A stretch of DNA of 64,000 nucleotides from Tetmemena sp. SeJ-2015 (Eukaryota; Ciliophora; Spirotrichea; Sporadotrichida; Oxytrichidae), in the NCBI GenBank assembly GCA_027382625.1, contig JAJKFJ010022639.1:32300-96299 (forward strand), read 5' to 3'. Below are positions 22,923-55,859 of the stretch, piece by piece (the first letter of the stretch is position 1; the number at the start of each line of letters is the position of its first letter). Under the pieces are notes generated by a model. It searched no databases. It was given only the letters and a program-made list of their open reading frames with translations, and was not told the origin of the DNA. The translations under genes and the position numbers were made by a program.

Positions 22923-22977
22923 AGTAATCGCAGAATCGCAAGTTAAAGCTGGACAAATCTATTAGCCATGAATCTTG

Positions 22978-25900: not shown

Positions 25901-28900
25901 TGCAGGAATCAGCGAAGACTCAGGCTTAGAAGCTTATGTCCTTCATCCTCGCTCTATCAAGCGAGAGCAGTATGTTGCGTTCCTTAAGAAGCTCAGAGAG
26001 AAGATCACAGACGGTGAGATCGTTCTACTCGTTGACAACCTCAGCGTACACAAGACAAAGAAGCGAATAAGGCATACGCTGAGTTGAACATCACTCCTGT
26101 TTTTTAATGTTCCATACTCGCCAGAGTTTCAACGGCATTGAGTTTTACTTGGAACTTAGTTAAGGACACTATAAGAAGCTGCTGCTCTATTACTTGATGC
26201 ATGATTAAGCTATCGATAAGAGGATTTAATAGTGAGTAGTTGTAGAGAGTGGAAGAAGAGAAGACAAAGTTTATGTGCGAGATAAGGTAGAGTGAATATT
26301 TAGAAAAGTATTTAAGCTTAAATTAATGACTTAAGTCACTTTGCTATCTGGGAAGAAGGGATTTCTTAAGAGTTCTTTCTCTCTTCTGTTGGCCAGATGG
26401 ACCTAGCTTCTCCTCATTTTCGAACCTGCTCCCGCATCTATGTGCATCTCTTCGTCCTTAAGTTTGTATAGTGATTAGACGCTTGCTCACCCCGATGCTT
26501 GTATTTTGCTTCCGTGCTCTGAATACCTTTGCTGCTTCTCCTCATTAAGTAGATGCCAGTGCCAGGTTTTCTCTACACATTAAACTCTAAAACTTACTGA
26601 GAGAAGTAGGGTACTCGTGGAAGTGCTCAAACCATTCGTTGCTGATAACTAGTCCTTGCTTCTTTGGGTCGTTCGTCCTCTACTTAGAATCTCTTCCTTT
26701 GTGCATCTTCAATGATCTCTTTGAGGTACTCTGCACGTACAGTAGCAAGGACGCCAAAAGAAGAACCTTCGTTCTGGCAACTTGTTTGAGAGTTGTTCCT
26801 TGTTAGTAAGGAATAGAGCAACCTCCGGATCTCCCATCGCATCGTCATACATATAGTGACTGAGATCTCAGGATAGTTTGGGATCTCCATCATGTTGATA
26901 TCGATTGTTTTAAGAGCTTTCTTCTCATCAGCAAGAATTGCTCTGAGGAACGAGATCTTTGTTCCATACATTGTCGGAAGGAACAAACCAACTAAGATAG
27001 TGTTACTCCATATGAGAGCTTCTTACCTTGCTAAGTGAGGTACCTGTAGAGGTCTTCCTTGCTTCGGAACCTGTTGCTCAACTCTTGCGCTTCCACTCTT
27101 AATCGCTTAACATTCAAGTTTTCCACCATCTTGCTCGAGTAACTTTCTAATTTATTATTTTTAAAATCTATTCAGTTAATATTTATCCTTCTTACTTATT
27201 TTAGAGCTTTTTATAAATTTATATTTATGATACTCATCGGATAACACTACGATTAATGATTAATTTTGCCTATATCAGAATATTGTTGTATAAAATAAAT
27301 TTTTGTGAGTTATGTCTTTTAATATCGTATTTAATTCATTATAAATATTATAGTTGATAATTTAAATGAATGATTGGTAAAATAAATAATTGAAAGCTGC
27401 AACTTTGTGGCAGTTAAAACTTTTCTTCTCCCACTCCTCATCACTAAAACTTGTTCCAACGGAATTAGTAGCACTACTAACTGCGTTTTGAACTTTAATT
27501 TCGTAGCAAAATCAAGCAGAATAAAAAATAAGTATGGAGCATCTAATTAAATAAATAAGAAAGATGAAAGACATCAAAACTGAGACCATCTTTTGCACTC
27601 TGATGTTCTCGTGAGTGCTCTGCACCTAGGCATCAGCATTTACATAATAATAAATGTGGCGGGCTTTTCATAATTTAAATTTGAATTTTAAGAATGGCAA
27701 CCAACCTAGCGTAAGAGACAAGTTACAACCTTTAAGCAAACAACAAGCTTAACTAATGTTCGAACAGCAACCAAAACAAGATGCTGTGTAGCACTAAGTG
27801 CAAAGGAGAGCTCTCTGAAGTTGAGCTCGAGCAAGAGATCTCTGTGCTTTAAATTGTCAAGCCAAGAGTTGAGAAGTCGTGGCGTATTAAACTATTCGCA
27901 CCTGATGCTCTCTTGTTGCTGTCCAGAGATCAATGAGAGAGAAGAAACCTTATTTGAATGGCGAGTAATGTCAACGGGGCAGTTCGAATATCCTCAGAGC
28001 CTCAAGCGGCACATTAAGGAAGTCCACTCAGAAAAACCTAAGATCTATATGAAGCATTAGAAAGTGGACGGGCGCTTCTGTCAACTTGTTGAGAGACATT
28101 CTCTCACTCTGCGTTCCTCAAGAAACACATGGAAAGAAGCACATGGGTGAGTTCGTAATTGAGGATAAAGGTTAAAGATGGTGCCAGCTAGAGGCAAGCA
28201 CGAACCTTGACAAGGTCAACTAAAGAGGATCATGAGTAAGAAGAAAGGAAGAGATTGAGTTCATGATCAGAAGCCTTAGTGTATGTTGTCAGTAAAGTTT
28301 CAGCAGCTCAAATCAAGACTCGATGCTTGAGAGTTGTAACTTTGGCAGAGTGTGGTCAAAATTACCTCCACCTTGCTGATGCGAGCGAAGAGACACCATC
28401 ATACAAGAAAAGTATGCTTACAAGATCTTCCCTTACGATTACCTTGTAAAGAAGGAAGAGGAGGGGTGTTGAGTTCGCGAACGAACTGACAGTGTTGAGA
28501 GAAGCGAGGGCAAAAACTTGAAGTACGTTCTTTCATCTTGCTGGTGTTCTTTATCGATCATGATTACATCGCCATTCGCCTTCTTAAATGGGAGATCACA
28601 CTAAGAGAATTTCTCAGCACCAGGCGCAACAAGTACTAGCTACTCTATTTTCACTGACCTCGCGTAGAGAGTGATGAGTTGCAATGAGTTGGGATTTCGT
28701 GACAGAGATCTCAAGCCAGAAAGAACATCATGATAAACTTTTTGAACCAGTCAGACAACTGTCATAACTTCAACAGAGTTGTAAGAAGAGAAAACATTGA
28801 GGGAAGCATCTGGCAATGAACTGCAGGTACTTCCCATAGAGACAATTGGCTCAACGGATATATAGCAGTGGGACATTTGGTCTAAGAGGAATCATACCTG

Positions 28901-31287
28901 AATGCGATATGAAACCAGAGGGATACTCTAGTGTGAAGTGAAGATGATGCAATATAATTCGCAACAAGACATTGTAAAATAGAACAAGTTATCAGAACCT
29001 TTGAAAAAGTTAGTAAACAAAGTAATAAGCAACCTATGAAACCTAACACGCAGTTATCTGAGATAGAGGAAGCACTTAAAGGTATAAAATTCAGAGAATA
29101 TGAGACAGACGTCAAGGTCACCTTCCTAGAAGACTTTAGATTGCCTGTTTAGGTTACAAATTTAGCATGATTATAAGTATTAATAAAGAAATTAATTATA
29201 CACAACTTATTTTCACTTTCTTATCATATTATGGGGTTTTGGGGTTTTGAATGGATCAAGGATACATAAATCAGTTATCTCAAAATGATGGGGGTTATAA
29301 TCAGCAATATCAAAGAAACAACTTTCCAATAAAATAATCCCCTGTAAGGCTTCCAAACTTAAGAATGGCATATGTAAGTTTAATATATCCCATATTAATC
29401 CATTTTTAGAAAAAGGATAACACTTTACTCACACATGCGGCCCATGGGGGACATGGAGCTGGAGGTAGACTTTGTGCTGTTTGCGCTAAAAAGCACAATC
29501 CAAACTAGCCTCATATAGTGTAGAGTATCCCTGCAAGCAAATAAAAGCTACTGTAGAGAGGACCCCTGTCTTTAAATAAATCTTAATCAAGGGGCGGTGG
29601 TATCGGTGGTTTAACAAGCAACAGATCTCAACGCTCTATTAGTACAAGTCGGAATAGAGCCGGCTCTCAGAATGGAAGACAACTTTTGGGGAATCTATCT
29701 TAAAGAAGTTTATAAAGCAGTCGAAGTAGAGGAGGAGGTCTTGGTTAAAATGAGTATAACCAGATAGATCGATTGAGATCTGTAAATAGGCTAGTAACTA
29801 TTCCTAGAAAACCTAGTGCTGCGGACTTTAGTAGAAATTATAAATCTCTCAGCCCTAGAGTGCAAATGGTGAGTAGAGGAAGACTATAAAATTCTAATGG
29901 AGTTGCTCAGCAACAGTAAAATTTGAGATAAGGCCCAATTATCAACAACACCTAGAAATTCAATACTAGCAACAGAGGAGGAAATTTCAATGCTTACAAT
30001 AATCCAAATCCTTAAGGATACAACCCTAATACTTCTCTGACCAGATTTTAAGGGTAGGGTATAAATCATAGTTCATTAACTCCAAAGCAAACTGTTGGGA
30101 AAGCTTCATTTTCAAATCCTTCTCAGAGCTAGTACAATTAATTGCCATATTCTTAACAGAATGCAACTCCTCAATCTAATTAGAACTTAGTGATGGGAGT
30201 GGCGGTCACTGATGAGCCTGAGTTAGTTTGTCGAGAAAAAGAGTTAGACCCCGCAGTTGAAGATGATATCAAAGATGGTTTTTTCGAGCTAAAATAAAAG
30301 TTCAAGGACTAATAGAATGGTGAGTCCTCAATTTATGTGTCACACGTAGTTCTGCATGCAAATTATTTTATCAGTGCTATGATTTTACTGAAATGCTAAG
30401 CATCCTATATTTTGCAAATTGGAGATCGACACTTTAAAGAACCTCCTTACTGAGAGTTCTATAATTTATCTTGCTAAGGATCAAGTCATTTATAAATCTG
30501 GTAGTCAAGATAACTTTGTCTATTTTGTCCTCTTTGGAAGACTGAATTAAAATTTTTGTTGTATACTTGCTATTCCTTATTACAGCAAGAATTTATTGGT
30601 ACCTCCTGTACCAGGCTTGCATGAAGATTTAAATGATATGAGACAAGCAAACATAAATATTACACATATTCATATTAAGTTTGAAATAGTCCTCCTGCAC
30701 CTCAAAAATAAAATTCCTAGCCAAGCAATTAGAAGTAACTTGGTATGGGCAGCACTCACACTAGTTTGCTGACCAACGTAGGTATCTCTGGGAAAGGCAA
30801 ATATTGGGTGGACTTTAGGAGAAGAAGTCTTATATGATAAGAATATGCAAATCAGATAAGAGTCATGTATAGCACTGATTGAGAGCTGCCTTCTAGGCAT
30901 TTAAAAAAGTAAGCTAGCAATTAAACTTGGATTTAAAATAAAGAAAGTAAAGTTTTCTTTTAAGATAAGTTTATGCAAAAAGGCTTTGCTCGACAAGGGC
31001 AATTAGAAAGACTATTTTGTATTAGAAAGTGTATTAAAGGGTAACTACCTAATAAAGTAAAACTGGAGGAAGGACATGCATGAATATTACTCATTCGTTA
31101 TATAGATTATTCTTCTTCATTTTACTCAAACTCAGTCAAAAGTAGATCCACACCTGGCCAATCATAGTTGGGAAATGACGATATGATTTCTAACTTAAAT
31201 GCTGATCAAATCTAGATTCCTAACTATAACCGTATATAATAGCAACTACAGTATTCAGGCAAGGAATCATCAACATTCTTAACTTGA
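22978..31287 (+). CDS. Gln/Asn-rich protein with cyclic-nucleotide-binding domain, split by a TBE transposon
   Basis: Candidate start ATG 22978 (MNLEQDKRQSQYPEQ). Long Gln/Asn/Ser-rich regions follow (23260-24350 and 24390-25195), with Gly-rich RGGGGFGG. The transposon at 25199-29249 comes next. The same frame resumes at 29253 (MDQGYINQLSQNDGGYNQQY) when one AAT is kept. After an intron comes CAVCAKKHN, more Gln/Asn/Arg/Gly-rich sequence, and a C-terminal cNMP-binding fold. Its parts are IIYLAKDQVIYKSGSQDNF then YFVLFGRLN (about 30450-30545) and, after introns, GWTLGEEVLYDKNMQIR (about 30805-30860). It ends at TGA 31285-31287. The fold is like PKA-regulatory or channel cNMP domains. The prion-like flanks are unusual. 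Exon joins are partly inferred. Confidence 0.72.
25199..25277 (+). repeat. TBE left terminal inverted repeat
   Basis: Matches the reverse complement of 29171-29249 apart from one fewer CAAAACC unit at the tip and a small indel near the inner end. Carries the C4A4 telomere-like tip. Confidence 0.9.
25304..26235 (+). pseudogene. TBE DDE transposase (42-kDa type), frame-broken
   Basis: Tc1/mariner/IS630-superfamily transposase. Starts at ATG 25304. The first catalytic Asp is in KFVCADEAVFTHNTF (about 25770-25810), the second in EIVLLVDNLSVHKTKKR (about 26020-26060), and the Glu in YSPEF..GIEFYLEL (about 26115-26160). At least three frame changes or TGAs interrupt it: near 25575, before 25770, and between 26065 and 26140. 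The three catalytic positions survive in different frames. Either an old copy decaying or indels in the assembly. It converges with the small minus-strand ORF at 26340-27129. Confidence 0.8.
26340..27129 (-). pseudogene. TBE small ORF (22-kDa type), frame-broken
   Basis: Candidate start ATG 27129 (MVENLNVKRLRVEAQELSN). The frame shifts near 27000 into TKISFLRAILADEKKALK and again near 26850. The later part reads through AEYLKEIIEDAQRKR to a basic end near 26400. The same protein is encoded at 61146-61700, where the segment near 26850 keeps its frame as NMYDDAMGDPEGCS, so the two copies carry different indels. Biochemical role of this TBE protein is not known to me. Confidence 0.65.
27694..29170 (+). 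pseudogene. TBE zinc-finger/kinase ORF (57-kDa type), frame-broken
   Basis: ATG 27694 starts MATNLAQETSYNLQANN. A region around 27960-28060 carries the His side of a C2H2 finger (FEYPQSLKRHIKEVH), with a second finger-like stretch just after. Near 28700 the kinase catalytic-loop motif RDRDLKPE is visible. The end reads EIEEALKGIKFREYETD and stops at TGA 29168-29170. Several frame shifts separate these parts. Zinc finger plus kinase is the published make-up of the largest TBE ORF. Confidence 0.7.
29171..29249 (-). repeat. TBE right terminal inverted repeat
   Basis: Ends with two telomere-like units (GGGGTTTTGGGGTTTTG on the plus strand) and pairs with the left end of the element. Confidence 0.9.
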
Positions 31288-31476
31288 GAAGGAAGACGAA
31301 AGATAAATATACTAAACATATTTATAAGCTAAAACTTGTATTTGGATTATCGTTATGATTATTAAAAGTATAAATTTTAAACTCATTGATAAAGCTCTAC
31401 AAATAAAAATAAGACTCACTCATTATTTTAAACTCCCCTTTTTCCTTGTATTCTAATTTTCTTGTGCCCTCCTGCC

Positions 31477-32700
31477 TCACTTTGTCCATCCTCTTTAGAT
31501 TTTTCTTCCTGTATAGTCTTTTGCTATGAAGAAGTAATCACCAGTATTTATCTTTTCAATTCCTTAATTTTCAATTCCGCATTCTTCAGTTGTAGATCTT
31601 TATCCTTGAGTCTCACTTCATTAATCTCTTGCTCTTCCCTCTACATAGCTATTTATCTATCAAGTTCAGCAACTCTCTTCTTTCCCTTCTTTTCTCTCTC
31701 TTCTTTAATTTCCTCTAAGGCCTGTACTTATTAAGCTAGTTCTTCCTCAGTCAAGAGATCATCAGGATCAACAGGCTCTTGCTGTTGCTATCCAGCGGGA
31801 GCGGGGCGACGACGTTTTATAAGGATAAGCGCATTTATTTTCCTGTGACGCTCTTCAAGATCATATATAACCTTATGTTCATCCTGCAACTGCTTTTCCA
31901 ATTCCTTACATTATTCCTATAGTTATCGTGTATCTGTCTTAACTTAGCGCATTTAAAGGTTTAGAGCTGACAGTTACTGCTAAAGTTCTTCTTCCTTATT
32001 CAGATCCTCCATCGCTCTTAGCTGATTCGCACCCACTTTCTTGATTTGCTAATTGCCATCTTCAAGTTTAGAGAGAGCCTACTCCTTTGAGCGAATCTCA
32101 TTTTCCAGTTCAGTTATTGCATGCATATCTACATTGGTTTCCAACTTGCGCTTTAGCTTCTAAATCTCTTTCTTAACTGCTTGCGCTCGCTAAGTGGCCT
32201 GCTTTAAATCTCGCTCCTTCTGTAAAAGATCTTCAGGGATGTTCGCCAAGTTAGAATAACCATCTTATTAACTTATTAAAATGCTATATGAAGAATGAAG
32301 GGCATTGACTCCAAATCTTTGTTTATCTTTTTCCTTTCGCTCTTTGAACTTAGTCAAAGCCACTTCCAGTCTCTCTATAAGCTAGAAATTGGAATTAATT
32401 TTATTAGCTAAGTGAGTTCCTCTTTGAGTTTGTGGTTGATTTCACTCATCTACTCGACTGAGACTGGCTCTGCATTTTACTGGTGTTGCTGAAATTGTGT
32501 TTGGTTGTAGGAGGGCTGGGAACTACTTTAGGGTGAAAGTTGTTTAGCCTTGATAGGGCCTGATTTCTGATTTTGTCTTTGGGCATTCAACTACACCTAC
32601 TGCTACTCGAAAGTGGCAGTGGTGTTCAAATGCTTAGATCCATTTATTGGCTGGTTTTTAACTTCAATCTAATGTAAATTAGGTTTACCTATAATGTATT
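31477..32700 (-). CDS. long coiled-coil protein
   Basis: Minus-strand frame from about 32700 to TGA 31477-31479. The N-terminal 90 residues are Gln/Ser/Asn-rich. After an intron near 32410-32385, a nearly continuous charged heptad-type coiled coil covers about 300 residues (for example RDLKQATQRAQAVKKEIQKL; EEIKEEREKKGKKRVAELDR). A Pro/Gln break (RRRPAPAGQQQQEPVDPDD) lies at about 31820-31760. Likely structural or cytoskeletal; no specific family can be claimed. Start codon not identified; it may be behind an intron near 32700. Confidence 0.65.
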
Positions 32701-33180
32701 TATTTCACTTGCTTAACGAGGAAATTCGTAATCACATTCAATTACTCATGCAATAAAGAAATCATAACAGTCACAGAATTAAAAACACTTACTATCAAAC
32801 AAAGAAATATCTTTAAAAATGACTTATTTAAATACAATTATCACTTAGGCATTAAATAATTCAATATTAATTTAATTATTTTGATAAAAAGACTGCTCTT
32901 TTTAACTCTGAAGAAGAGATAATTCATTTTAAGGAGATCTCAATAAAACACTAAGCAATTCAAATATTTTTGATATCATGAATGAATAACCCACTATTTG
33001 TAGTTACTATTACTTTAGGCTTAAAAACATTTTATTTTTTATAATTGGATAAAAAAGGAAGGAAAATAAACTTTTCTTAATCGCCCGCCTTATTAATTAA
33101 CTAAGAATTTTTATTTAACATGCCAACAATTTGCAAATTATATCTGCTATATTCTAATTAAATTTATTCTTTTTTCCATT
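32701..33180. other. AT-rich spacer
   Basis: No supported gene; AT-rich and free of recognisable repeats or RNA genes. Separates two minus-strand genes. Confidence 0.45.
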
Positions 33181-33183
33181 TTA

Positions 33184-33543
33184 AGAATATTAGATTCAGA
33201 ATAGAAATTTCCCTCTTCATCTTCATCATAGTCAGAGTTGTTGTGACCGTATTCGTTATTATTTCTCTATATATTTGTAAATTATTCGAAAAGTTATAAA
33301 GCCTTTGCAAGTTCTCTATTTTTAGTGATTGCAAAAATAGAATCTCACATAAATTGATAACTGACTGTGCATTACCTTTTAATTAGAGGTATTTTGCTGG
33401 TTTTGAAGTTTGTTAGCGCTTTTGTTATTTGACTTGGCAAGACTTGCACTTGGTTGATAGTCTGCCATATGATCCTAGTCGTTATCATAGTCTTCTTCTT
33501 CCTCCTAGTAATTATAGTTTTGAGGGGGGAGTTACTTATTCAT
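33184..33543 (-). CDS. small acidic Asn/Gln-rich protein
   Basis: ATG at 33543 starts MNKQLPPQNYNYQEEEEDYD, then Asp/Glu-rich and Asn/Lys/Gln-rich sequence. An intron or IES near 33380-33315 follows. The second coding part reads ELAKALQLFEQF, then a strongly acidic SDYDEDEEGNFYSESN near 33230-33190. The true stop is uncertain because the frame runs on into AT-rich sequence. No family recognised. Confidence 0.5.
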
Positions 33544-33632
33544 TTTTATAATTCCAAATACTTATTTACTTTTTCAATTCCTACTATTTTAAGAGTCATA
33601 AAAAGAACATGAGATCTACTAATTATTTAGAA

Positions 33633-33642
33633 GCCACTCACT
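33633..33642 (+). other. scrambled pointer, 3' copy (GCCACTCACT)
   Basis: Ten bases identical to 44769-44778. They mark the start of the 3' segment of APC8; the sequence to its left is non-coding for this gene. Confidence 0.88.
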
Positions 33643-34158
33643 ACTATGTCAACGCAGCTATGGCTAAGTAAGAATATTAAGAATCATTCTTATGTTAAAT
33701 CTCCTTATAGGCCAAAGGACTCTCGTATGTGGGTGGCAATCGCAGGTTGCTATGACAAAATAGATAGGAAGGACGAAGCAGCAAAATGCCTAGAGAAGGG
33801 AGAGCAGTAAACTGATAAAGAAGGAATTGCTCTTCACAAGCTGGCTAAATTGTACATCACCATAGGTGAATACAAAAAAGCAGCTGATTGCTACGCTACG
33901 AACTTAGAGAGAAAAGAAAAGCAGGAATTCGATTCTCAAGAGACGACAGATGCACTACTCTATTTAGCCAAGTACAACAAACTTCTCGGTAACTACAGAG
34001 AGGCAATCGATTATGCTTAGAGACTGCACGATTATAGCGGTACGGAAAGGGACTTAGCTGTGGCACTCCTAAGAGAAATTAATAACTCCGCTTAGTACTA
34101 GTAACACCCTTAGCCAGGAGGAATCCTTCAATAAAGTTAGTAGTAGTAGAATAATTGA
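33633..34158 (+). CDS. CDC23: APC8/CDC23, 3' macronuclear-destined segment (scrambled gene)
   Basis: C-terminal TPR part of the anaphase-promoting complex subunit APC8 (CDC23), a scaffold of the ubiquitin ligase that drives mitotic exit. It begins at a 10-bp pointer, GCCACTCACT (33633-33642), shared with the end of the 5' part at 44769-44778. Reading across that pointer gives a seamless TPR: NYATHYYVNAAMAK. A 43-nt GT..AG intron (33668-33710) is followed by PKDSRMWVAIAGCYDK, the family's highly conserved motif, and EGIALHKLAKLYITIGEYKK. It ends with a Gln-rich tail at TGA 34156-34158. The rest of the gene lies 9.3 kb downstream, beyond two minus-strand genes and a Gln-rich gene. Confidence 0.9.
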
Positions 34159-34251
34159 AGATATAGTTTATACATGTCTTAATTGTGCACTCTAATAAAT
34201 ATTTTCTCAAAAAATTAACTCTCTATTAATTCACTAATTCCTTTGCTTTCT

Positions 34252-34575
34252 TCAAAGCTTTGAGGCATCTAACTTTTCTTGAGTTTCCTTCAAAAGCCTT
34301 TATATTGTCTTAGTTCTGTTCCTAATTAAATGCATGTGGGAGATAGTATTTCCAAGTATCTTTCGGCCCTTAATGAATAATAATTGTAAAGATATTTTTT
34401 TTGGATAATACCCTGCACTAATATATTTTGCTGAAGTAATAGCTTTAGGTTCAAACTCAGAGTAGGTTTGAGATATTCTCTTGATTGCTTCAAAAAGGCA
34501 TTTTCCATTCTACTTCATTTCATCACCAAGTCTATAAAATTCATGGATAGATTTATAGCTTTAAAATAAATCTTT
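34252..34575 (-). CDS. orphan coding segment, helical, unrecognised
   Basis: A minus-strand frame open for about 100 codons with Gln-coding TAA/TAG reads IHEFYRLGDEMKQNGKCLFE, then further helical sequence, ending at TGA 34252-34254 after QEKLDASKL. It overlaps the end of the Nudix gene in another frame and has no obvious start. It may be the end of the Nudix protein after an unseen intron, or a segment of another scrambled gene. Confidence 0.4.
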
Positions 34576-35454
34576 CAAACTCTTAGTGGATGCCTCTCAC
34601 GAATTAGTAAGCATTCTAAAACATCTTGTATTTGACTCCTTCTTCGTTACTATTCAATTCTTATACTGGCAACCATCTCGCATCAAACACTTCTCTCTTG
34701 TCATGGATATTAATGCCCTCATTCTAATCCTATTCTTCCAGAGTCTCTCCTTTCAGTTTCATCAAGCATACTATGTAAAAGTCTGCACATCCATATTTGA
34801 ACTCCAGAAGCTCTCTTATTCCCAAAACTCCAACGAAGTCAAAAATCTTTTGCTAATTTTCAAAAATAGACATTATAAGTCACAAAGTACTCCAGTCTCT
34901 TCATAAATTTCTCTCTCACATGCTTGCTTTATGCTTTCACCAGGATCCATAAAACCCCCTGGAAGTTTCCAAGGTCTTGGATGAGGTGATCTGCATTCTT
35001 AGATCATCAAAATCTCATTCCTTGAATTAAGTAGCACTCCACCTACCCCTGCATAGTGATGAGCGTAGTCTGGAATCTTAGAAGGCGTAGATTCATCAAG
35101 CCATAAGCACATGAGAACATAGCCACTGCTGCTTGTATCGTTTGAATCTGCTAATTTAGGTTTGATTTAGTTTGCATGGTGAAAGTAAAAGCCATGTCTT
35201 GCAGCAACATTCATGAGCTGGCATTTGGGAGGCTTGAATTAAATCTGCACCGATCTGATATTCTCTGACTTCCAGTGTTCAAGGTTGTATATCAATTACT
35301 ATTCAAAATCTTCCTCAGAGTAGCAGAGCGAGTCTAAGTTAGTTACTTCCATTCCTCTAAAGCGATCAACCTTGCCTGTAATTAGTGTCTAGGGAGTTGG
35401 TGGTTCGTTAAGGATTGGCTAAGATGATGCAGGATCAGTTGAAGATTTTTCCAT
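34541..35454 (-). CDS. Nudix hydrolase (NUDT6-like)
   Basis: Hydrolyses a nucleoside diphosphate linked to another moiety. ATG at 35454 (MEKSSTDPASSQPILNEPP). An N-terminal domain with ARHGFYFHHAN, as in NUDT6-type proteins, precedes HYAGVGGVLLNSRNEILMIQ. A complete Nudix box follows: GGFMDPGESIKQACEREIYE followed by ETG, fitting GX5EX7REUXEEXGU. An intron of about 38 bp directly after EETG (GTACTTTG..AAATTAG) removes an in-frame TGA and restores FDFVGVLGIREL. The C-terminal half (YIVCLMKLKG; DARWLPVQEL) is typical. The stop at TGA 34541-34543 follows ILKLQIYP; an alternative splice could extend it into the 34252-34575 frame. Lies between the two halves of the scrambled APC8 gene. Confidence 0.88.
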
Positions 35455-35934
35455 TCTTTTTATTTTTAATCAAATTAATGCAGATACAATTCCATCATTA
35501 AACTTATCATCATCTACTAACCATTAAGATTTACATAATAAAGACTTACTCTACTATGAACTAAACAGCTCGCTTATATTATAGCTTAAATTTTATAAGA
35601 TAATTAAAGCTGGACGCATTTCAAATTAAGAAAGGATAAATTGATGAAAGTAATTATAAGAAATTTATTTAAGTAATTTCTCACCAATTGATAAAGGAGC
35701 ATATTTTTAAAATTCTTTAAACTTTGCATTGATTTGGGAGTGTTCAGCAAAAATAGTAAGTCCAAAGCAATTTTAGAATGGCATGAATGATCTCATTTTA
35801 CACTCAGAAATTAACTGATATCATGGTACAAATTCTGTACAATTTATTCACCAACTCTCGATTTAAATATAAATTTAAAACATACTAAAAACTATATGTA
35901 AAAGAAAATGAATCATAAAAAGACTGATATTTCA

Positions 35935-38900
35935 TCATATATATTTTTTAAATGTCTCACTAAATAATTTAGAAATTGATTATAAAATAGACAGAATAAC
36001 TGCTAGTTGTGTCTTTGACTATCCATCTGCATTTTAGTTTTTGAATTCATCCTATGAAGTAGACTTAGGAGTGAGTTCACTTTCTTTCCTTCCATAGCCT
36101 TAATTGCCTATGAAGGTCATCGCATTCTTCTTTAGATTGTAGCCTGACCTTGCTCCTCTGCCACTTTCTCTATGCTAAGTTTGTGATTAAGGCATTCCTA
36201 GAAATTTCTCCTTCGGTTCATTTTAATTTCCTCTTGCTGATTTGGAGGCTGTGGCATTTGTTATGTTTGTTTGGTTATTTATATTTAAATAAATAAATAA
36301 TTATTTTATTGGTTGAGTTGGCTTTAGTTCAAGTTGAGAGAGGAAGAGTCAGAGATGTTGTTTCTGCTCTAGCCAAGTTTGTGACTCGAAGTTCCTATTG
36401 GTGAGGGTTGGTTCGGACTCAGGTCTCCTCCACTTTTATTAGAGAGAGGCCTCTTCCCTCCACTAAAGCTAATGCCTTTATCTAAGTGGTTAGCTCTAGA
36501 GTCCTAAGCAATCCTCCCTCTGGATTTCTAATTGCCACCTCCTCCCGATGTATGATACCTACGATCATCAACATCATCTATTTTAAAGAATTAGAAAAAT
36601 CATTTAAAGTTTAATTTTAAAAAATTTAATATAATTTTATGTTTATGTATCATCAGCTGTGTAGTAATCTTTGATTGAGTTTGAGTCGTCCTCTTCATCT
36701 TCCTCCTTGTCCTCTTCTATTCTCTGAGTAGACAACTACAATTTAAATATGCTCTGTCTGTCTCTTCCCTGGGCTGTGACGCCCTAAGATGAACCAAAGG
36801 AACCAGAACCTCCCCCTCCACTACTAGCCATAGACCCACCCAGGAATTTATTGACCTAAGTGGTGCTTTATGAGCTTTATTTACCTAACAAGGTGTTTCT
36901 ATGCTATATTACGCTATGGAGAGACCCAGTGCTACTTGATTAATCTTGCAAAGCTTTGCTTGGAGAGTTTTATAATTATCTTGATAAGTAAAGAGGATAT
37001 TTCTTCAAGTAGATAAATAGAGAATTAAGAAATGAGAAGTAGATAAGAATCTTGTCTTTGAACCTAAATTAGTGTCCTCTTTGTTGCAGTAGCTTATGCT
37101 GAAGCTGCTTTAGATTCAACTGTGTCAAATAAATAATGAATTTGTCTCTAAGTTCTTATCAGGGGAAGTTTAAGAAATGTCTCCTCCATCTCCTAAAAAG
37201 TCAAAAGCACCAATGTTGCTCTTTCTAAACTTGTCATGAGGATATAACTTTAAGGTAAACAATAAATAGCTAATTGGATTGTTTGAGCCATATGCCTATC
37301 GCTTGAAAGTGTTCTTGCTTGATCTATTCCTTCCAGGACTTCCAGACGATGAGAGATCGAACAGTCCTATATCATCGGGATTTGCAGCTGCCGCAAATGG
37401 ATCCTCCATATCCTCAAAGATGTTTATAATGTTTCTCTTCACGATTTCTATCATGTCATTTCTGGAACACTCTGCTAAAATGCATTGACAGTAAGCAATC
37501 ATATCCTCAGCTATTAGTCGAGCACTCTAACCGTTTGTAGTGAATAAGTCCAAACGAAAATCTGAAGCCTTTAAGGATTGACTTGAGCTCCTATTTAAAA
37601 AGCTTAGCCTCAGGACATCACATGACCCCATAAAAAATATAATGTAGAAGAAATGAAAAAAAATTCATAACATATAGCAATTCATCATAGGAGATTCTCT
37701 ACAGAATTTTGTCCCTTTTTGAGTTATCATAAAAGCTCAGACCATTAAAATTTACCACACAGAGGATGTCATGGTTCATATGATTTTAAAGGAAAGACTC
37801 TCTATTACCAGCTCCTAATTTAATGCTCTGGCCACCATGGGTTGGACTTAGACTGTCATCGTCATCATCCATATCATATTGCTTAAAGACTAAGCCATTC
37901 GTGCCTCCAGGACCGGTTCTACTAGCTAAAATAAAAATTACGATTTAATTGAGCAATCAAGCTATTTGATTATTGAGAAGCTGCTCAATCATATTTCCAT
38001 CTCTTTAAGACTAAGACTGTGCTCTTATGACATAGTATGTAGAGAAAGCAAGATGATAGTGAGCGTACTAGTTTAAGAACTTTTCTTGAGCCTCTTCAAT
38101 AGATAATTCTCTCAGATTGTGACGATCAAAGTCCCTTTATATCTTTTGCACCCAATAATCTTAGGACTTTTCTCTCATGAAGGAGCTTGGAAGGGCATAT
38201 TCAATCTAAAATCTTAATTAAAGCATTTGATCTTACATTCTTAACGATTAGCTCTTTCGTCAATGAGTTATCCTTAGACCTTAAGATCTTGCCCCAATAT
38301 TTAACTTTGAGGATAAGTGCAGCAAATAGACTGACATCTTCATAGTTGCATAATCTTCTGAGGATATTCTTCTCTATATAATCCATCCTCACTTAATGAT
38401 ACAGAAAATTGAGAGGCTTCTTTGCTAAAGTTTTTGTGTTTTTGTCTAAGTGAAGAGCTGTGAAAAGTCTCTTCCTCATTAGAAGTATTGTACTTTGATA
38501 CTCATTATCTTAGAGGGCATCAACTGAAGTGAACAGTGTCTTCTTTCGGAGAAACTTGGTAGACTTCTTCTTGATAAAGGAATACCGCCGCTCAGGAGAT
38601 TAGCTACTACTCATACTATCATCTAAACCATTAGGGTCCACTCCATCTTTGTAGATTGATCTACGCTAGAGAAGTCCTTAAGTCTTTTCATTTTTATACA
38701 GTAGTTTCAGGATTCTCTTATCCTTACTTAGAGGTTAATCAAATTAGTCTCCTCTTTCCACGTGCTGATAAAGCCAATAGAATTCTGAATCTGGTTCTTT
38801 CAAGAAAAATTTCTCTTTCCAGATATGTTATGTTAGAAGGGATTCCACAGTGGTTAATTCATCTACTGTATATTAATATACATCTCCGACTGGAGTGTTT

Positions 38901-41900
38901 AAATAACTTTAATTACAGAGAGTGTATACTTGAATCATAATTGGTTCTCCTGTTATCACCTGCTCAATCTCTGAGAATCCAGGTGCCCAATAGCAGTATG
39001 GCTTTGTTGTTTACGCACCACTTCCTGAGATAAAAAATTAATTAAACAGCATTGAGTCTAATCTTTTTACGATGGTGAAATTATGGAGAACAGCCTGAAT
39101 CAATCTATAAAATTCCCCTCCACTTTTATCTTTCAATTGATTCAGCCAGCTCTCTAACCCTTCAACTATATATAATCACAGTACTTGATAATTCAACTAG
39201 ATCCTTTGAGGGAGTAGTGTATCTTGAATAAAGAACAAGTATAAAAAGGGCATTAGCAATTGCCTTTGCACTCTTTTCACTTTGTTGCATGTTTTTTCGA
39301 TTTATTTGCCTGAAAATCTGCATGTAAAATTCATCAGTTAGCTCCTCGTTAATAATTTTGTTTGCTTTAACTACAAACTCTTCAAATAGCTCCTAGATCT
39401 TTGCGTATAAAGTGCTTTTGTTAAGATCATCACCCTCACAAATAGCAAATAAACACCTATTGAATCCAACTGCAGCTGGAGCCTTATTTTTGTCAATCTT
39501 TGTTATAGGATGAGTTAGTTTCGTGCCATTAAATTCTAGATAGTCTTTGGATAGTAAGTGCTTGTAATTCACTAGGAACGAGCTTCCAGCATTATTTGGA
39601 GATCTTAAACTACTAGTCTGCTCTTAAGTAATTTAAGCTGGTAGTAATAAAAATCATCATATGCTTTTAAATATATTGAATAATGTCTATCTACGCCTGG
39701 TCTAGTCAGTTGTTGTCCCTCCACTTTCAGTTCTATAAACTGCTTGCATGGGGTAAGGCTCTAGTTTTTAAGGAAACAAGTTATCCAAACCATTTCTATA
39801 TCTGAAGATGATTCTCGACAGTTTTAAATTAGAATCATTCTTAGCTAAGTTGTAAGCTTTTGAGCTTAGAGATGAAGTCCATAAAGCATTTTGAGCCCCT
39901 TGTAATCCAACTGAAGGAGAACCAGTTTACCAGGTTCCTGCAGAGGAGTCATAAAGAAGGAAATGGCATCTGTCAAATATGTTTCTATAGGCATACGATT
40001 CTTCATCTCGTAAAAATTTCTAAGCTTCTTTGAGGTTCTTCTTCACATAGTGCAAATTCAAGTTTGAAATCTTCAGATAGTCGGCACTGAATGGATGTAA
40101 CCCCAAATTAACTTCGACTTCTGATGTGAGGCCGAGCTCCTCAGGACTCATTTCAAGATATTGCTCATACTTTTCATCATAAACATTCAGAGTTTTATCT
40201 TCATCTCCATAAAGCTCGAGATGATTATTATCTCCATCTCCCTATGGCTGAGATTCATCATCTGAATTCTAAGACTTATTTTACATTTCTGTCAGGAAGT
40301 TATTTCTCAACATCTTCAAAGTAATGGCTACATCTACGATCTCTCCTCTCATCCCGATTCGCCTTGCTTCATTAAGTGCATTATCAAGCATCGCATTAAG
40401 TTCGTTATCATCTAACAGATCCATGTTGATCACCTTCAAGATATCCCTTCCTACTCCTTATGCTACAATAGATAACTCTTGATACTTTTCCTCGGCCTTT
40501 ATATTCCGGGCGTTCATAAATCTAAGGCAATCTAGAAGAATCTCAAGGCAGTAAATATTTTCGCATTCCATGCTTTAGAACAGCTTTTCATTAACTACTT
40601 CGAACAAAGGCTCAAGTTTATGCCTAGGAAATTCAAAAATGAGTTAAGAAATTTCTTGCAGTAAATCCCGAATATCCTCTATGTAAATGTTATGACGGTC
40701 ATGGACCATCCTCTCTAAGCGAGCGAATATTCCATGGAGCTTATCTCTATCTACTTTAGAAACGGGAAGTCCTTTCAAGAAAACTCCTCCGTAATTAGGT
40801 TTGCGGACTATTCTCATCTCGAGCTTATCCTTCCCATTTATAGTCTTCAAGACCTTTTGCTATTAAGGTTTATCACCGCCACTAAAAAACGTAAATTAAT
40901 GAATGAAAGTAAGAGAAAGTGTTAAAACTAGTGTTTTGGCCTCCTAATATTTGATTAGGATTTATAGGTTTGAGTTCGTAGGTAATATTGAATGCATGTT
41001 TCAGAGTAGCCTCAGTTAAAGGCATAGGCCCGCACTTGAATATTTGCGTAATTCATATAAACTAATTCAAATGAATTGTAAGGAAGATTTATTGACACAT
41101 AGAGAGTACCCTTTGAGAAGTGTCCGCTTTCCGAAAGATGTGAACTGATTATTTTCTAGATTAAAGAGTTGCAGCTTGCAATCCTCATTCGCAAAAATGA
41201 ACTTAATTAAAAACCGTAGAAAGAAATATACTGAATAAATTTATTAATTATTGGTGCAAGACTTTCATCAGTAAACTAGTTATCACTCAAGTCCACACTT
41301 TGAGGGTTATCTAACTCAGTTAGTAGATGAGTGAAAAATATTTCTAAAGCCTACTATTAAGCTCCTCCTGATCCTAGTAAGTTATTACAAATTTAATATT
41401 GGAAAGATTAATTTCACAAATTATTGCTCAGGTTAACTTTCTATATAAGAGGACAGTTAGAGAATACTATTCCCAGAGCCTCCAGAGTTGCGTTTTACAA
41501 GCCATTTTGTATTTTAATCAACATTCATTTTACTACTTGAATTAAGCCATTATTTGATAACTCTAAATGAATGAGACGCTCATACTGTGAGATTGATGAT
41601 ACTAAAGATTTTAAAACTTGGTCGACAAGAAAGTTCCCTCGAAATATTATCGTAGAGACACTTTCGCGAGAGAAGGTTGAAAGAACCTACTAAATTGTAC
41701 TCATCCAGTGCTATTCGTTTCTATATAAACATAAATGCCATTGAAAAACATTTCCTGCAAAGACGATAGTATCTCCAGGAAAGACGAGAGATTTTATAGA
41801 ATCATTTTCTCTACCAAAGGACAACAGATAAGGAAAGTTTTAGGGATCAAAGCATTCCTCTTTGAATTCCATGCACCCCATATGAGAGTTATAGCCCTGA

Positions 41901-42608
41901 ACCCAATTAGTTATGAAGATAGGTCCACTAGTCTTTTTGGCCTGGTTTGAAATTTAGCTTGAATTAGGATTACTCCCAGAGCCCTGATTGGCGTTTTAGG
42001 AACCATCTCCGTTTTAAGGATTCTCTCTATATTACTGGCTGAGATCATCTTGAGTGAATAGCAATTCATAGTTGAGGTACGAATAGACCAAGTTCAATAG
42101 ATTGACATACTCATCTGCTTGACCAGCATTTTCACAAGCCAAAATACGTCTTTTCTAAGTCTTCTTATTGTGCATTTCTATAAGATGTGTGAAAGGCTAC
42201 TTAAAGGGAGGTAGCTGCTTTAGGTATGAAGGTGAAGGTGGAGGGGGTGAACCCGAAGAAATGTGATTGAAGTGGGAAGTTTCCTCATCTTAAAGCACTC
42301 TATTAGATCTAAACTGTGTCATTTCAAGTTTATCTATAATTCATAATAAACATGGCACAGTAAGTCCTACCATATTCATCTCCAAGCAGATCGCCTTTCT
42401 CTTGGAATAGGTAAAACGCTCTCTCTGTCAAAATAGCATCCTTAATCCACCACCTTGGTTAGTTATTATCTACATAAGAGATACTCCTTGATTTATTCAA
42501 ATGGATATAATAAATTAAAATTGAAGCAAAAATGAAAGGGAAATAAGACTTACGCATTTCAAGAGTAGCAATTGCACTGTTCTTGAGCATGGATTCACAA
42601 GCAAACAT
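35935..42608 (-). CDS. large LRR / MyTH4 / FERM cytoskeletal-type protein
   Basis: One long minus-strand gene with many short introns. ATG 42608 (MFACESMLKNSAIATLEM). After an intron comes a PH-like segment (PRWWIKDAILTERAFYLFQE, about 42470-42400). Leucine-rich repeats follow at about 41660-41000 (LIHLELSNNGLIQVV). An intermediate domain lies at 40870-40300 (LHGIFARLERMVHDRHNIYI). A MyTH4-type segment is at about 39440-39180 (INEELTDEFYMQIFRQIN). FERM lobes are at about 38640-38060 (YEDVSLFAALILKVKYWGK; LSIEEAQEKFL) and 37770-37620 (ILCVVNFNGLSFYDNSKR). A Gly/Ser/Asn-rich tail ends near TGA 35935-35937. MyTH4-FERM modules link membrane or cargo to microtubules and actin; no myosin or kinesin motor is visible. 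It could be two adjacent genes joined at about 40900. Confidence 0.68.
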
Positions 42609-42807
42609 TTTCTTTTAACTTTTAATTTATTAAGAAAGATAAAGCAAATTTATTTCAATTAGTACTATTTATTTTCATTTGGATTTAATACAGCTAAGAA
42701 AAGTAGCCAACCTATGCATAGAAGATTACTTATTTTTGTAATTTCAAAATTTTAAATTATAATTTACTGATCCTAAACTAGATAACAATTCAACTTTGAA
42801 GAAGAAA

Positions 42808-43400
42808 ATGTGGAACAACAACTAAAATAGTGATATGATTCAGCAGCTCTAATAACTTCATCAATAGCACAATAGACTCGTCCCTAATCATTTACAATAG
42901 CAAACAAACTCGCAGCATCCAGGTTTCTAGCAGCAATAACATTAATCACTGCTTCAACCTGCGAACTAACCTCAGCAGATATTCTAGCAATCTCCTAATC
43001 AAAATGGAGGCATACATTTACAAGAGCTTGCTGATCTCATCAGAGATAGTAAAATAGTTTTTATTTAAACAAATTTAAGATACTAGCTTTGCATTCCAAT
43101 TCCCAGATCGATCTTCTTTAGCTCGAGAGATCAGGTTTGCCATGGCTTATTATTAGCATAACAGACTTTCACAAACCTCAAAATGGTAAGAGCTTATTAC
43201 ATATATCCATAGATTCGAAGATTATTAACTCTACTTCTAATTTAAATTAATTTTAGGCTTGGAGAATTATTGGTATCTATATCCACAAATCAGAATGCTT
43301 AAGTCTAAGGCACAGTATTTATAAATAGCGGATAGAATCATTAATCTCATGGACATCATTTCAATGAATCTAGCTTATAATTATAAAGGCAACATTTCTT
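42808..43400 (+). CDS. Gln-rich protein, unrecognised
   Basis: ATG 42808 begins MWNNNQNSDMIQQLQQLHQQ and continues Gln/Asn/His/Pro-rich for about 90 residues. After an intron near 43054-43083 comes a short, less biased part, and then a second intron at about 43188. The 3' end is not resolved. The bias resembles other prion-like ciliate proteins. It stands between the start of the LRR/MyTH4/FERM gene (opposite strand) and APC8 part 1. Confidence 0.5.
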
Positions 43401-43467
43401 AATTTTTTAAATGAAACTTTTTTAAGAATTTTGATTCGAAAATATTTTTAGCTCTTAAGACATCTAG

Positions 43468-44778
43468 ATGAACAGTAATTCACTTGGCGGGAGTCCATCT
43501 GGTCCTGATGGAAATTCCGTTCCACTGGGAACGAGCGGAATATATTTTTCTGAAGAGTTAGACATTCCTCTGGAGCATGGTTACCAGCCCAATTAGATCT
43601 TCAATAAAGTTTACTTTGAGCACTAGTGTGAAGCCACAGATACTCTCAACTAACATTAACACTTTCTCTTTTTTTGATTAATTTTGATAACTTAGCTCGC
43701 ACCTTATTTGACTTGAGAGAGTACAGAAAGTGCGCTCATCTACTCAAGCCCTTAGTAGCAAGCCACAACTAGTCGGCTATTTTCCTGCACTACCACGCCT
43801 TGTTTTTGGTTTCTGAATTGGCTAAGGAGGAAGAGATGCATCAAAGTGGCGACAAAGTCATAAGTTCACAAGTTCAAAACAAGGAACTAGCTACGATAGA
43901 AACTGAGCTTGAATAGCTTAACAGAAATGACACGTTTAATGGAATTAATCTCTATCTCTACGGAGTTATTCTCAAAGAAAGAAACAAGAAGAAGGAGGCC
44001 ATTGAAAAATTCATCAAAGCACTCAACAAACAACCCATGCTAATTTTATAGTCAGAAAGTATTTTAGGTATTTTAATAAGCTATGGTCAGCTTGGCTTGA
44101 GTTATAAGGTCTTATTTAAAGCTCAGAGAGCAGAGAGTTATTCAGATAATTCAAACATCACTGGATGCTTAACTTCTTCATATCAAATTGGAAGTTAGAA
44201 AATCAAGAAGAAATGGAGTTAAAAATTTTATCATTATATTTGATATTCTTTCTATGAGTGTCTGAATTATACTATGCAGCTGCTGAGAATGTTTCCAACT
44301 AGTGTTTTTCTTCTAAACTAGACAGCCCACATCGCTTACAACTGCTAGAATTATGACTACGCCTTGGACCTCTTCACTAAGCTTTTCTCTGTTGATCCTT
44401 GCAGATATGAGAACATAGACCTATATTCGAATATTCTATATATCAAGGAAAGCTTTGGAGAACTAGCTCAGCTTGCATACAAAGTATTTCACAATGATAA
44501 GTATAGACCAGAGTGTTGCTGTGTTATAGGCAACTACTACTCGCTTCGAGGCGATCATTAAAAGGCTGTGGTTTACTTCAAGCGCGCAATAAAGCTGGAC
44601 AGTAAGTTCCTTTCAGCATGGACGCTCATGGGTCATGAATACCTTGAAATGAAGAATACTAACGCAGCCATTGAGAGTTACAGAACTGCTGTAGACATCG
44701 ATCCTAAGGATTTCAGGGCGTGGTATGGCTTAGGCTAAACTTACGAAATTAATCAGATGTATAACTACGCCACTCACT
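43468..44778 (+). CDS. CDC23: APC8/CDC23, 5' macronuclear-destined segments (scrambled gene)
   Basis: N-terminal and middle TPR region of anaphase-promoting complex subunit APC8. ATG 43468 ([20 protein letters not shown]). Three IESs with pointers AACT, GCTA and AA must be removed; each deletion restores a conserved sequence: [31 protein letters not shown] and [14 protein letters not shown]. Conserved family motifs follow: [50 protein letters not shown] and RAWYGLGQTYEI. Coding ends at pointer GCCACTCACT (44769-44778) in mid-TPR, and the next bases are unrelated. The gene continues at 33633. Identification is very strong. Confidence 0.93.
43648..43688. other. IES 1 of APC8 (41 bp, pointer AACT)
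   Basis: AACT at 43648-43651 and 43689-43692. The spacer is AT-rich and lacks GT..AG ends. Its removal fuses DTLN to [11 protein letters not shown], as expected for the APC8 family. Confidence 0.82.
44039..44079. other. IES 2 of APC8 (41 bp, pointer GCTA)
   Basis: GCTA at 44039-44042 and 44080-44083. Removal gives [16 protein letters not shown]; retained, it disrupts the frame of a highly conserved region. Confidence 0.82.
44222..44264. other. IES 3 of APC8 (43 bp, pointer AA)
   Basis: The shared bases AA at 44222-44223 and 44265-44266 allow an in-frame join [15 protein letters not shown]. The spacer is AT-rich. The short pointer makes the exact boundary less sure than for the other two. 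Confidence 0.7.
44769..44778 (+). other. scrambled pointer, 5' copy (GCCACTCACT)
   Basis: Identical to 33633-33642. It marks the end of the 5' segment of APC8; homology to APC8 stops here and resumes after the other copy. Confidence 0.88.
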
Positions 44779-44824
44779 CACTTGCACTCAAAATAATCAT
44801 TAAGAAAATATTAAGGTCTTATTT

Positions 44825-45010
44825 ATTTATAGATGATGATAACTTGAGATCGGGAAAGTAAACGGCAAGTAGATACCCTCCTAAAGGCACTAATTTGATG
44901 AGAAGTAATGGGGCTGAGGATATCAATCGTATCTCTCCTCACAGAAGTGAAGGATACTTAATCAATAGCAGAGTCTTAATCACAGCAGAACAAAGGAGAG
45001 ACAATTATAA
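44825..45010 (+). CDS. orphan coding-like segment
   Basis: About 60 codons open with Gln-coding stops, of balanced composition: NLRSGKQTASRYPPKGTNLM, then SEGYLINSRVLITAEQRRD. It sits just after the APC8 5' segment, behind 45 bp of AT-rich DNA, but does not match the APC8 tail. No start or stop. Possibly a segment of another scrambled gene. Confidence 0.35.
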
Positions 45011-45473
45011 TTACATTTTAAGTTTTAAAAAAATTATTAATAATAAAACCACCATATATTTTGTTTGTTGATTATTGTGAATGGTGTTGGGGCAAAAAGT
45101 GAATTATGATGAGATGAATAAAGATCAAAAGAAAGAAAATTTGAATAACATACTTTCAGCTGCTTTTAATTTCATGCCTCCTCCACCACTTTGATAAACA
45201 ATCATAAGCGCACTTTTGAAATAATCATTTTTCTTTTTATCTTGAAAAATACTTGAAGAATTTAATGTTGATCTCTAACATTTTTACTAGCTCTTTTGAA
45301 ATGAGAAAAGCTAATTTGAATTATATCCTCATCTACAATCATATTAAAAAGAAGCCCTTCTGATTAGTAATAGAATGCTTAATTAATTTATAACAAGATA
45401 TACAGAAATGAATATCGCACAGTCTATGATTAATTATAATTTAACATATTATAATATTGCATCCCTTCCTTTA
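45011..45473. other. AT-rich spacer
   Basis: No reading frame of note, no repeat and no RNA gene recognised. Confidence 0.45.
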
Positions 45474-48428
45474 ATGAATTAAGACATATCACATGATTCC
45501 TCTCCCTCTCAGCCACGCAGCACCATCAATTCTAAATGATCTCAGATCTCCTCTAATCATATTTTAGGAACAAAACAGCCAGGATTTTAATATAGAAAAC
45601 TCACTGATAACTAAATTAAGGAACAGCAAAATCTTTCCTCTAATAAAAATCAATAACAATAGACACAGCAGCCTCAGCAAAAGATTTTCGGATTCAATCT
45701 CTTTGGCAATTGACAAACCCGCAAATCCTCACAGCAACTCTCTAGAACTTCTGACTAGGATTATCTTAACTCGAAGGAATCTTCCTCCTCTATGGTTAGC
45801 CATGCTAGGGATGACTATTCTGCTATGGAGGATAGTAATTATGGCTACGGTGCTGCTTCTAAGAACTAATGAGACTACAATCACTTTTACAAAAGCTAGA
45901 AGGGTGGTGCTAGTGGTAAATATATCCTCTAAGATGAGGGAATGGCAAATTCTGATTCTGATAACTTGCTTTTGAATTAGAATAAAGACTTGGTCGATTT
46001 CCTTGCTGAAGAGAAGCAGTACACGAGAAGATAAATTTTGAGGCGAAAACGCTGCTGGCAAACTCTGATATTCATTCTCACCTTCATAATTAACTTCCTA
46101 ATCAGCTTCAGAGATTACTTTATTCAAGATATTTTGAAAGAGGAGCCAGACAGCTCTCTTGACGTTTGCAGTGAACTTATGCAAAGGAATTGGATTTATT
46201 ATAATTGGGAATATGTACGATAATGTGGCCACTCCTAAGAGACTGACTTTCGTTTTATTGTTCATGCTTTCAATTTTCACTGCCCTAGTAAGTCTTAATT
46301 AGTATTTTGTGCGTTAAATATTTTGATTTGTTGAAAATAATATAACCATTATTACCTATAGCATGGTACTATGAGCCCAGATACCATAAACTATCAGCAG
46401 TTTATGCACATTTCCAAACACAATGACTCACTTACTTCTGCTTTGCTGCTTAATCAAAACCCAATAAGTCAAATTCAAGTGCAAATCAATAAATATAGGA
46501 GAGAATAAAGTGAAGAGATGGCAAATGGATTATAAACTTCCTTAAGCCAATTTGATTTAAAAGATCAGCTAGGTTAACAAAATATTGTATATAATGCATA
46601 ACTAATTAATAAATTTTAAAAACAAGATTCGATAAGCAAATACACATATATCAAGTTATGCTAATGGGCTAAAAAGCTGAGCCGAAGTTAAGGAACATCA
46701 AACAATTAAAAGTAAAAAAGAAATCTAGATCTAGGTAGAGTTCAAGATGATATTTTGAGATACTTCTCAACCAACAAGCAAGAATCTTAAAAATTAAATT
46801 CGATAATTGATCAAACAGTAAAAAGAAATCGAAGTCGGTCCGAATACGATGAAAATTCCATTAAAAGCATAATTAAGTTATTGCTCCCAAGAACTTCCGG
46901 AAGACTGACTGAATAGGATAATTAGGAGGATAGTAATGACGATAACCCTTTTTCGGATATCTATGGATTTTCTTATGAATAATCTACAAACATTATCTTC
47001 GAGATGGCAAGTGTGAGGGCTTTTGAAAGTGGAGTAAGCTTATTTAAACTTATTAGACGCTCTAACATTTTTAATAGGTCTTGATTGCTTGCATGGTAAT
47101 ATTGTATAACTGGTTCCCAGCAAGCTAAACTGTATTTGTAATTGAAAAGTGCATATTCAAATATTTAAAGTTTATCGCTATTTCATAGTAGGTATTTGGG
47201 CATCTTCTTACATGTTCTGCCCCATAGTTTATGACTTCCTAGATATATCTGTGCAATAGTATTATGTAAGCAAGTCATTGACCGCTTTAACTTTGATATA
47301 GTCGGTAGAGTGTTTTATATTGGCAGGTCTTTACCTGATCATGTCAGTAGTCTGCTTTAAATACTTTTATCATAATCCACTCCACATTGGAATAATTATA
47401 GAGCCCAACGCAAGACAAAGTGGCTTTTTCTATGATGACTTCTCATCCTAAGTTGGACTCGCAAAGCCTTCTAATGCAACAGCTTAAATAAGACAATTCC
47501 ACAAGAGACATAGAATATCCATTATAGATGCTTTTCAGTATAAATCGTAAGGCAGTTTTCAGTTGTTCATTCTCATTATAGAGTGAACTTGTTTATTATA
47601 TCTTTCATTTTGAAGAAGCTTCACGAGTATGCTAAATCATATTTTTGTAATTGATCTATTAAATTAAAATTAAGGATCTTACTTGGAGGTAGACCTCACT
47701 CTAAAAAGATTATTACTACTTTGAGCTTTAGCAAACTGTAACCTAATTTGCTTTTATATTATGCTTTAGACGTATTACTCATTCGGTTAGATAATGTCCA
47801 TCCTGACAGTGTCTTTTATGGCAGATGGCTTCTTGAGGAACAAGCTATATTTGACTCTAGCCTTCATATCTTTCTTTTAAATACTGTATGTGCTGTTCGG
47901 CTACTTTTTGGATGACTGGATAAATCAAGATGAGTCTGTGCAAGTGGTGATGGCAATTATAGTAGGAGCTATCCTCGGCTCGTCTACATTTCTGTACCAG
48001 TGCTTGATTCCATTAAAGCTAGCGAGGGCTATTACTGACAGAAATATGCGCAAACAGCTCAACTCTAGCGCCATTGAACTCAGAGTTAGTTAAACTAAAA
48101 TCATTTGCTTTTACTATAATAGGTATAAGCATATGTCAATTAAATAATTGTAATAGTTTATGTGGGAACAATTATAGGCGCTATCCTAGGCACAACTTAT
48201 CTAATAAACACTCTCGTATTTACAAATCTCACATCAATGATAGACTTCTCAGTCTCAAATTAGGGCGTTGCTTTAAGTTTACTAATCCTTCTGCTGATAA
48301 TATCAAATTTAGTGCTGTTTAGAGGCACAAAAAGAGAGCTACTTTAAATATCCTGCATCAAACGTTGCTTCCCTAATAAACTTAAAAGCAGAAAGATCTA
48401 TGTGGAAACTGAAGAAGGCTCAATATGA
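45474..48428 (+). CDS. multi-pass membrane protein, unrecognised
   Basis: ATG 45474 (MNQDISHDSSPSQPRST). A polar, Gln/Ser-rich N-terminus of about 180 codons in one frame holds three TGAs (45537, 45711, 45870). Hydrophobic segments follow: TLIFILTFIINFLISF (about 46060), TFVLLFMLSIFTALV (about 46250), VLIACMVILYNWF (about 47080), CFILAGLYLIMSVVCF (about 47310), LYLTLAFISFFQILYVLFG (about 47850), VVMAIIVGAILGSSTFLY (about 47950), VGTIIGAILGTTYLINTLVF (about 48165) and SLLILLLIISNLVLF (about 48275). A hydrophilic section between about 46380 and 46990 would be a loop. It ends at TGA 48426-48428 after YVETEEGSI. Several short introns or IESs lie between. Channel, transporter or receptor: undecided. 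Confidence 0.6.
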
Positions 48429-55579: not shown

Positions 55580-55859
55580 TTAAATAGAAAATAATTCCTA
55601 TTAAATAATAAAACACATAAAACTTAAAGTTACCCTTTTAACCATAAAGCAAGGGCTCGGCCCAACTATGCAGGGGCCTCTGTTTCTATAGGAGCTTCTC
55701 AGGACTTGATTGCTCATCAATGAGTCATAATTGAGTAATTTAGGCCTGAGTAGGACGGTCGCGATCTTATTGATATAATCACGTGCGCATCCTGAGGGAA
55801 GGATCGGAGATTTATAAAGTAATGCCACTCACTACTACATGTTGCTTTCTGATTTTCAC
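55580..55859. other. spacer before the decayed repeat array
   Basis: No supported gene. The transition to a more GC-rich, repeat-like sequence occurs near 55850. Confidence 0.35.

Follow-up and report, generated by a model that had tools for sequence, protein, structure and literature searches.

The window analysed here, a 64,000-nucleotide stretch of DNA (positions 32300-96299 of contig C3275), contains an APC8/CDC23 gene that is very probably, at roughly 0.94 in our estimate, a scrambled (permuted) germline gene of a hypotrich-type ciliate, with its last macronuclear-destined segment (MDS7) displaced upstream of the six others (MDS1 to MDS6). Our model has seven segments, whose germline order is 7-(Nudix gene, second minus-strand coding region)-1-2-3-4-5-6, the upstream position of MDS7 being judged from homology to the Stylonychia lemnae and human proteins. 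An ANAPC8 domain and a TPR array align with known APC8 and identify the gene. A sequence-only reading of the same DNA had proposed that the gene is assembled from two parts lying in the order 2-1. This holds up as the best reading, because the searches turned up no copy in which the parts are in order, a second haplotype has the same left side, five internal eliminated sequences (IESs) interrupt the gene, and two other permuted genes occur in the same assembly.

As that reading had it, the likeness to CDC23/APC8 breaks off at 44778 and picks up again at 33633 on the same strand: the frame 44244-45071 matches human CDC23 up to residue 412 of the chain, and the 3′ part matches from residue 422. 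The 10-bp pointer claimed for both junctions was also found there, GCCACTCACT ending MDS6 and starting MDS7 on the plus strand (Table 1), and repeats of 4-5 bp were found at the five ordinary joins. When MDS6 and MDS7 were fused on a single copy of GCCACTCACT, with TAA and TAG read as glutamine, a protein of 712 amino acids was obtained. The code of Oxytricha and Tetmemena likewise reads TAA and TAG as glutamine. The joined model matches S. lemnae APC8 at 65% across 618 residues, beginning at residue 78, and the alignment has no gap where MDS6 meets MDS7. It also aligns to the human CDC23 chain in one stretch (72-549, 350 bits), again ungapped at the join. Two positions of the window drawn at random shared at least 10 identical bases, on a fixed diagonal and within 41 bp, in 28 of 400000 draws, a denominator that retains the skipped pairs lying less than 200 bp apart. 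The 11 kb given earlier is what separates the two copies of the pointer; the end of MDS7 and the start of MDS1 are 8.65 kb apart.

A third copy of GCCACTCACT occurs in the window at 55824, where shuffled sequences average 0.07 copies per window. It matches the start of MDS7 over 14 bp (55824-55837) and sits in a G+C-richer stretch at 54-60 kb; no Pfam match was found around it at 54501-59400 with E up to 0.001. We considered this copy and rejected it as meaningful, the 14-mer being found four times in the assembly (two of these are the APC8 alleles), near the chance expectation.

The five IESs of the APC8 model are 34-78 bp long and 80-88% A+T, are without GT..AG ends and are flanked by exact repeats of 4-5 bp; the frame is kept when each is excised with one copy of its repeat left. 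The limits first given for the 3′ part were right, but the 5′ limit of 43468 was too late, the gene starting at 42808 as judged from a Stylonychia-like start. Residues 8-77 of the model are unaligned, and homology reaches back at least to residue 78. What had been taken for a separate glutamine-rich gene in the gap turned out to be MDS1, the N-terminus of APC8 itself, and the gap therefore holds the Nudix gene and one further minus-strand coding region. Beyond the pointer, the MDS6 frame stays open for 97 codons up to a stop ending near 45071, and no APC8 homology was found in this extension, either in the comparison with human CDC23 or in the assembly search with S. lemnae APC8. The stretch at about 44830-45010 (within 44779-45071) looks coding; it could belong to another gene as one of its segments, or form an alternative end.

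We searched the whole assembly (146.2 Mb, 5213 contigs) for other copies of the gene. At the DNA level, 43450-45010 was found once and the 3′ part of APC8 twice, in the window and on contig C1010. The S. lemnae APC8 protein gave 11 matches, six of which are this gene (five on C3275, one on C1010), covering S. lemnae residues 19-66, 137-255, 253-308 and 275-476 in the 5′ part, 467-609 at MDS7 and 479-609 on C1010; the other five are weak TPR matches of 24-28% identity. No APC8 copy with its parts in order was found by these DNA and protein searches, in which only the best candidates were scored.

Contig C1010 (12371 bp) aligns to positions 22942-25198 (95.4%) and 29250-39424 (95.6%) of the window, and carries MDS7 with the identical pointer, flanked by the same neighbours. 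Directly upstream of that pointer, the two haplotypes show substitutions and an 8-bp gap. Within MDS7 we counted 23 synonymous and no nonsynonymous differences in the 160 ungapped codons of 161, the remaining one being a codon of the glutamine run that is missing between the haplotypes. Selection therefore acts on the displaced segment as on coding DNA; 526 bp long and detached from the rest of its gene, it stays under strong purifying selection on its protein. The difference between the haplotypes is 1.4% at 29250-33000, against 4.4-11.1% in seven longer regions measured rightward.

Permutation was found in other genes of this assembly. The chaperonin profile PF00118 gave 39 matches in 14 loci, 11 of which are multi-piece; sorted by eye, nine of them are colinear (one of the nine, on C4291, spans a 5′ half only) and two are permuted. 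Because the profile misses pieces that are too short, the two permuted loci are a lower bound. In the CCT delta gene (C3098:122266-124425), the 3′ part lies upstream of the 5′ part, in the same 2-1 order as in APC8, with an 11-bp pointer (GTCGTTCACGA), and the joined stretch can be aligned, ungapped where the parts meet, with CCT delta chains of solved structure. In the CCT zeta gene (C2995:59527-60736) the segments are interleaved, and the pointers measure 8, 7, 8 and 11 bp; the joined stretch could be aligned with CCT zeta chains along 153 residues, with a gap of one residue that lies a few residues ahead of one join. The actins (PF00022) gave 65 matches and 20 multi-piece loci, haplotype duplicates counted, and none of the 20 appeared out of order by eye. 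The pointers at scrambled joins (10, 11, 8, 7, 8 and 11 bp, n=6) are longer than the ordinary ones of 4-6 bp (5, 5, 4, 4 and 4 bp in APC8, 6 and 5 bp in the Nudix gene, n=7; exact one-sided p=0.0006). Passages of PMC9797194 describe scrambled pointers as longer on the whole in Oxytricha, Tetmemena and Euplotes woodruffi, and give the share of scrambled genes as 15.6, 13.6 and 7.3%, respectively.

The DNA is germline in nature, as it holds IESs and a TBE-like element and the window lies on a 96-kb contig. According to passages of PMC9797194, spirotrichs have gene-sized chromosomes in the macronucleus, and linked IES-bearing genes on a contig of this length are therefore germline DNA. The TBE-like element, whose DDE_3 match scores 38.1 bits (cut-off 28.6), is bordered by AAT on each side, and C1010 holds the empty site with a single AAT. 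Missing from C1010, the element is therefore a polymorphic insertion. TBE transposons have ANT as their target and C4A4 ends. The element at 25199-29249 fits the hypotrich TBE transposons as they appear in parts of PMC9797194.

Several points weigh against a scrambled APC8. The pointers were assigned by hand with the homology in view, and by frame alone an APC8 product without MDS7 may be possible. Most multi-piece loci are colinear in both families surveyed (20/20 for actin and 9/11 for chaperonin), and in-frame splicing into MDS7 by some GT-AG pairs would be possible in both haplotypes. The joining on one pointer copy is itself inferred. No trace of an origin by duplication and decay showed up, no decayed segment copy rising above shuffles at either junction flank: 203 of 300 shuffles scored as high as 44779-45020 against MDS7, and 231 of 300 as high as 33401-33632 against MDS6. 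Finally, the linkage of MDS7 to MDS1-6 depends on a single contig, because C1010 does not extend beyond 39424 and the assembly search gave no second copy of 39425-43440. With one contig alone known to span MDS7 to MDS1, this contig could be a misjoin, and the two parts could in truth stand side by side and in order on the germline chromosome. However, we regard such an assembly error as very improbable, since a misjoin would not make a frame-correct 10-bp repeat where the homology breaks (a coincidence as rare as the random draws above), the allelic contig C1010 has the same left junction, the searches gave no contig with ordered parts, and the same assembly holds two more permuted genes.

Splicing of RNA, either in trans or in cis from a copy in tandem or circular form, would bring the parts together without DNA rearrangement, and we give it equally little credence. 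When the four GTs in 44700-44830 were paired with the six AGs in 33600-33670, four of the 24 pairs were in frame into MDS7, all of them with the AG at 33612, and one of them ran into a stop where the parts meet. This AG is missing from the other haplotype, yet two different AGs keep the frame there. None of the 24 pairs, however, restores the MYNYATHYY of the joined model (MYNYAAHYY in S. lemnae), the closest having ISTNYLE in place of MYNY, and splicing leaves both the shared 10-bp repeat and the five IESs without GT-AG ends unexplained. A degenerate or split pseudogene with the true APC8 elsewhere, which the interrupted frame in germline DNA and a possibly incomplete assembly might suggest, can practically be dismissed, since no other APC8 was found in the assembly, MDS7 shows 0 nonsynonymous against 23 synonymous differences between haplotypes, and every interruption is removable as a repeat-delimited excision or a GT-AG intron.

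For a scrambled APC8, the five short AT-rich IESs in MDS1-6 would be excised at their 4-5 bp pointers in the developing macronucleus, and MDS6 would be fused at its end to the start of MDS7 through GCCACTCACT, of which one copy would remain. We infer from related species that this joining takes place, and that template RNA and a transposase would guide it. The joining of MDSs in Oxytricha is said to be programmed by long noncoding RNAs that act as templates (PMC9797194), and the TBE transposase is implicated in rearrangement in passages of PMC12242761.

The locus clearly adds one more case to a phenomenon that was already known. Passages of PMC9797194 on the scrambled genes of Oxytricha trifallax and Tetmemena sp. 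describe the same permuted MDSs, IESs and short direct-repeat pointers, longer where scrambled, in germlines that also hold TBE transposons, as here, and name genetic code table 6 for a TBE search. Compared with those genes, APC8 has one permuted segment only. The nested 'Russian doll' loci treated in parts of the same paper have pointers that bridge other loci, as the APC8 pointer does with the Nudix gene, a complete other gene between scrambled segments, and the second coding region, both lying between MDS7 and MDS1. Unlike these loci, the APC8 locus is single-layered: one layer of scrambling was seen where several would make a doll, and the intervening Nudix gene reads as non-scrambled. IESs, pointers and scrambled chromosomes are also reported from the spirotrich germlines of Strombidium cf. 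sulcatum and Halteria grandinella in passages of PMC10901763, which give 15.9 and 12.9% scrambled chromosomes, respectively, and a germline G+C content of 52.0 and 42.4%, against 34.1% in the window. One limited literature search did not find CDC23 in print as a scrambled ciliate gene. The locus documents a core cell-cycle gene as scrambled, in a simple case with one displaced segment, one long pointer and five short IESs, and together with CCT delta (2-1) and CCT zeta (interleaved) it makes three worked examples on which the relation of pointer length and distance to scrambling can be tested.

Table 1. Features of the APC8 locus and its surroundings, in positions of the window.
Feature	Position	Strand	Remarks
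TBE-like transposon, about 4 kb	25199-29249		56-bp perfect inverted repeats, the left one starting CAAAACCCC; DDE_3 match; AAT duplication
MDS7, APC8 3′ end	33633-34158	+	TPR repeats to stop TGA; 43-bp GTAAG..TATAG intron at 33668-33710
Scrambled pointer GCCACTCACT, copy at MDS7 start	33633-33642	+	unchanged in the C1010 allele
Nudix hydrolase gene, complete	34252-35454	-	372 amino acids, read from start to stop
Nudix IES, pointer ATCCA	34549-34591	-	placed by frame and repeat alone
Nudix IES, pointer TGACTT	34842-34882	-
Second minus-strand coding region	36000-42610	-	approximate limits; weak MyTH4 match
MDS1, start codon and Gln-rich N-terminus	42808-43043	+	about the first 79 codons; MWNNNQN against MWNNYQN in S. 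lemnae, by eye
IES a, 34 bp, pointer AGATA	43044-43077	+
MDS2	43078-43370	+	71-bp GTAAG..TTTAG intron at 43186-43256
IES b, 78 bp, pointer TAGCT	43371-43448	+
MDS3	43449-43647	+
IES c, 41 bp, pointer AACT	43648-43688	+
MDS4	43689-44038	+	ANAPC8 Pfam domain
IES d, 41 bp, pointer GCTA	44039-44079	+
MDS5	44080-44215	+
IES e, 40 bp, pointer GAGT	44216-44255	+
MDS6, APC8 TPR core	44256-44778	+	terminates at the scrambled pointer
Scrambled pointer GCCACTCACT, copy at MDS6 end	44769-44778	+

The Nudix gene that had been placed in the gap is indeed there, complete, and reads colinear. Its stop codon is separated from that of APC8 by 93 bp. A macronuclear chromosome might carry APC8 and the Nudix gene tail to tail, MDS7 running unbroken into the latter, with two alternative somatic products, one with and one without APC8, arising from the same locus; we hold this to be unlikely. 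If it were true, the 10-bp pointer would add the APC8 body to a chromosome otherwise able to carry the Nudix gene alone. For the second coding region, an LRR/MyTH4/FERM gene had been suggested, and part of this survives: a MyTH4 match was found at 20.2 bits, below the Pfam cut-off of 27, while six-frame Pfam scans of 30001-48000 with E up to 0.01 gave no match to LRR or FERM. To the left of MDS7, a minus-strand region at 31416-33543 appears to belong to a coiled-coil gene, with a weak Lebercilin match below the cut-off, and what looks like its start codon is some 90 bp away from MDS7.

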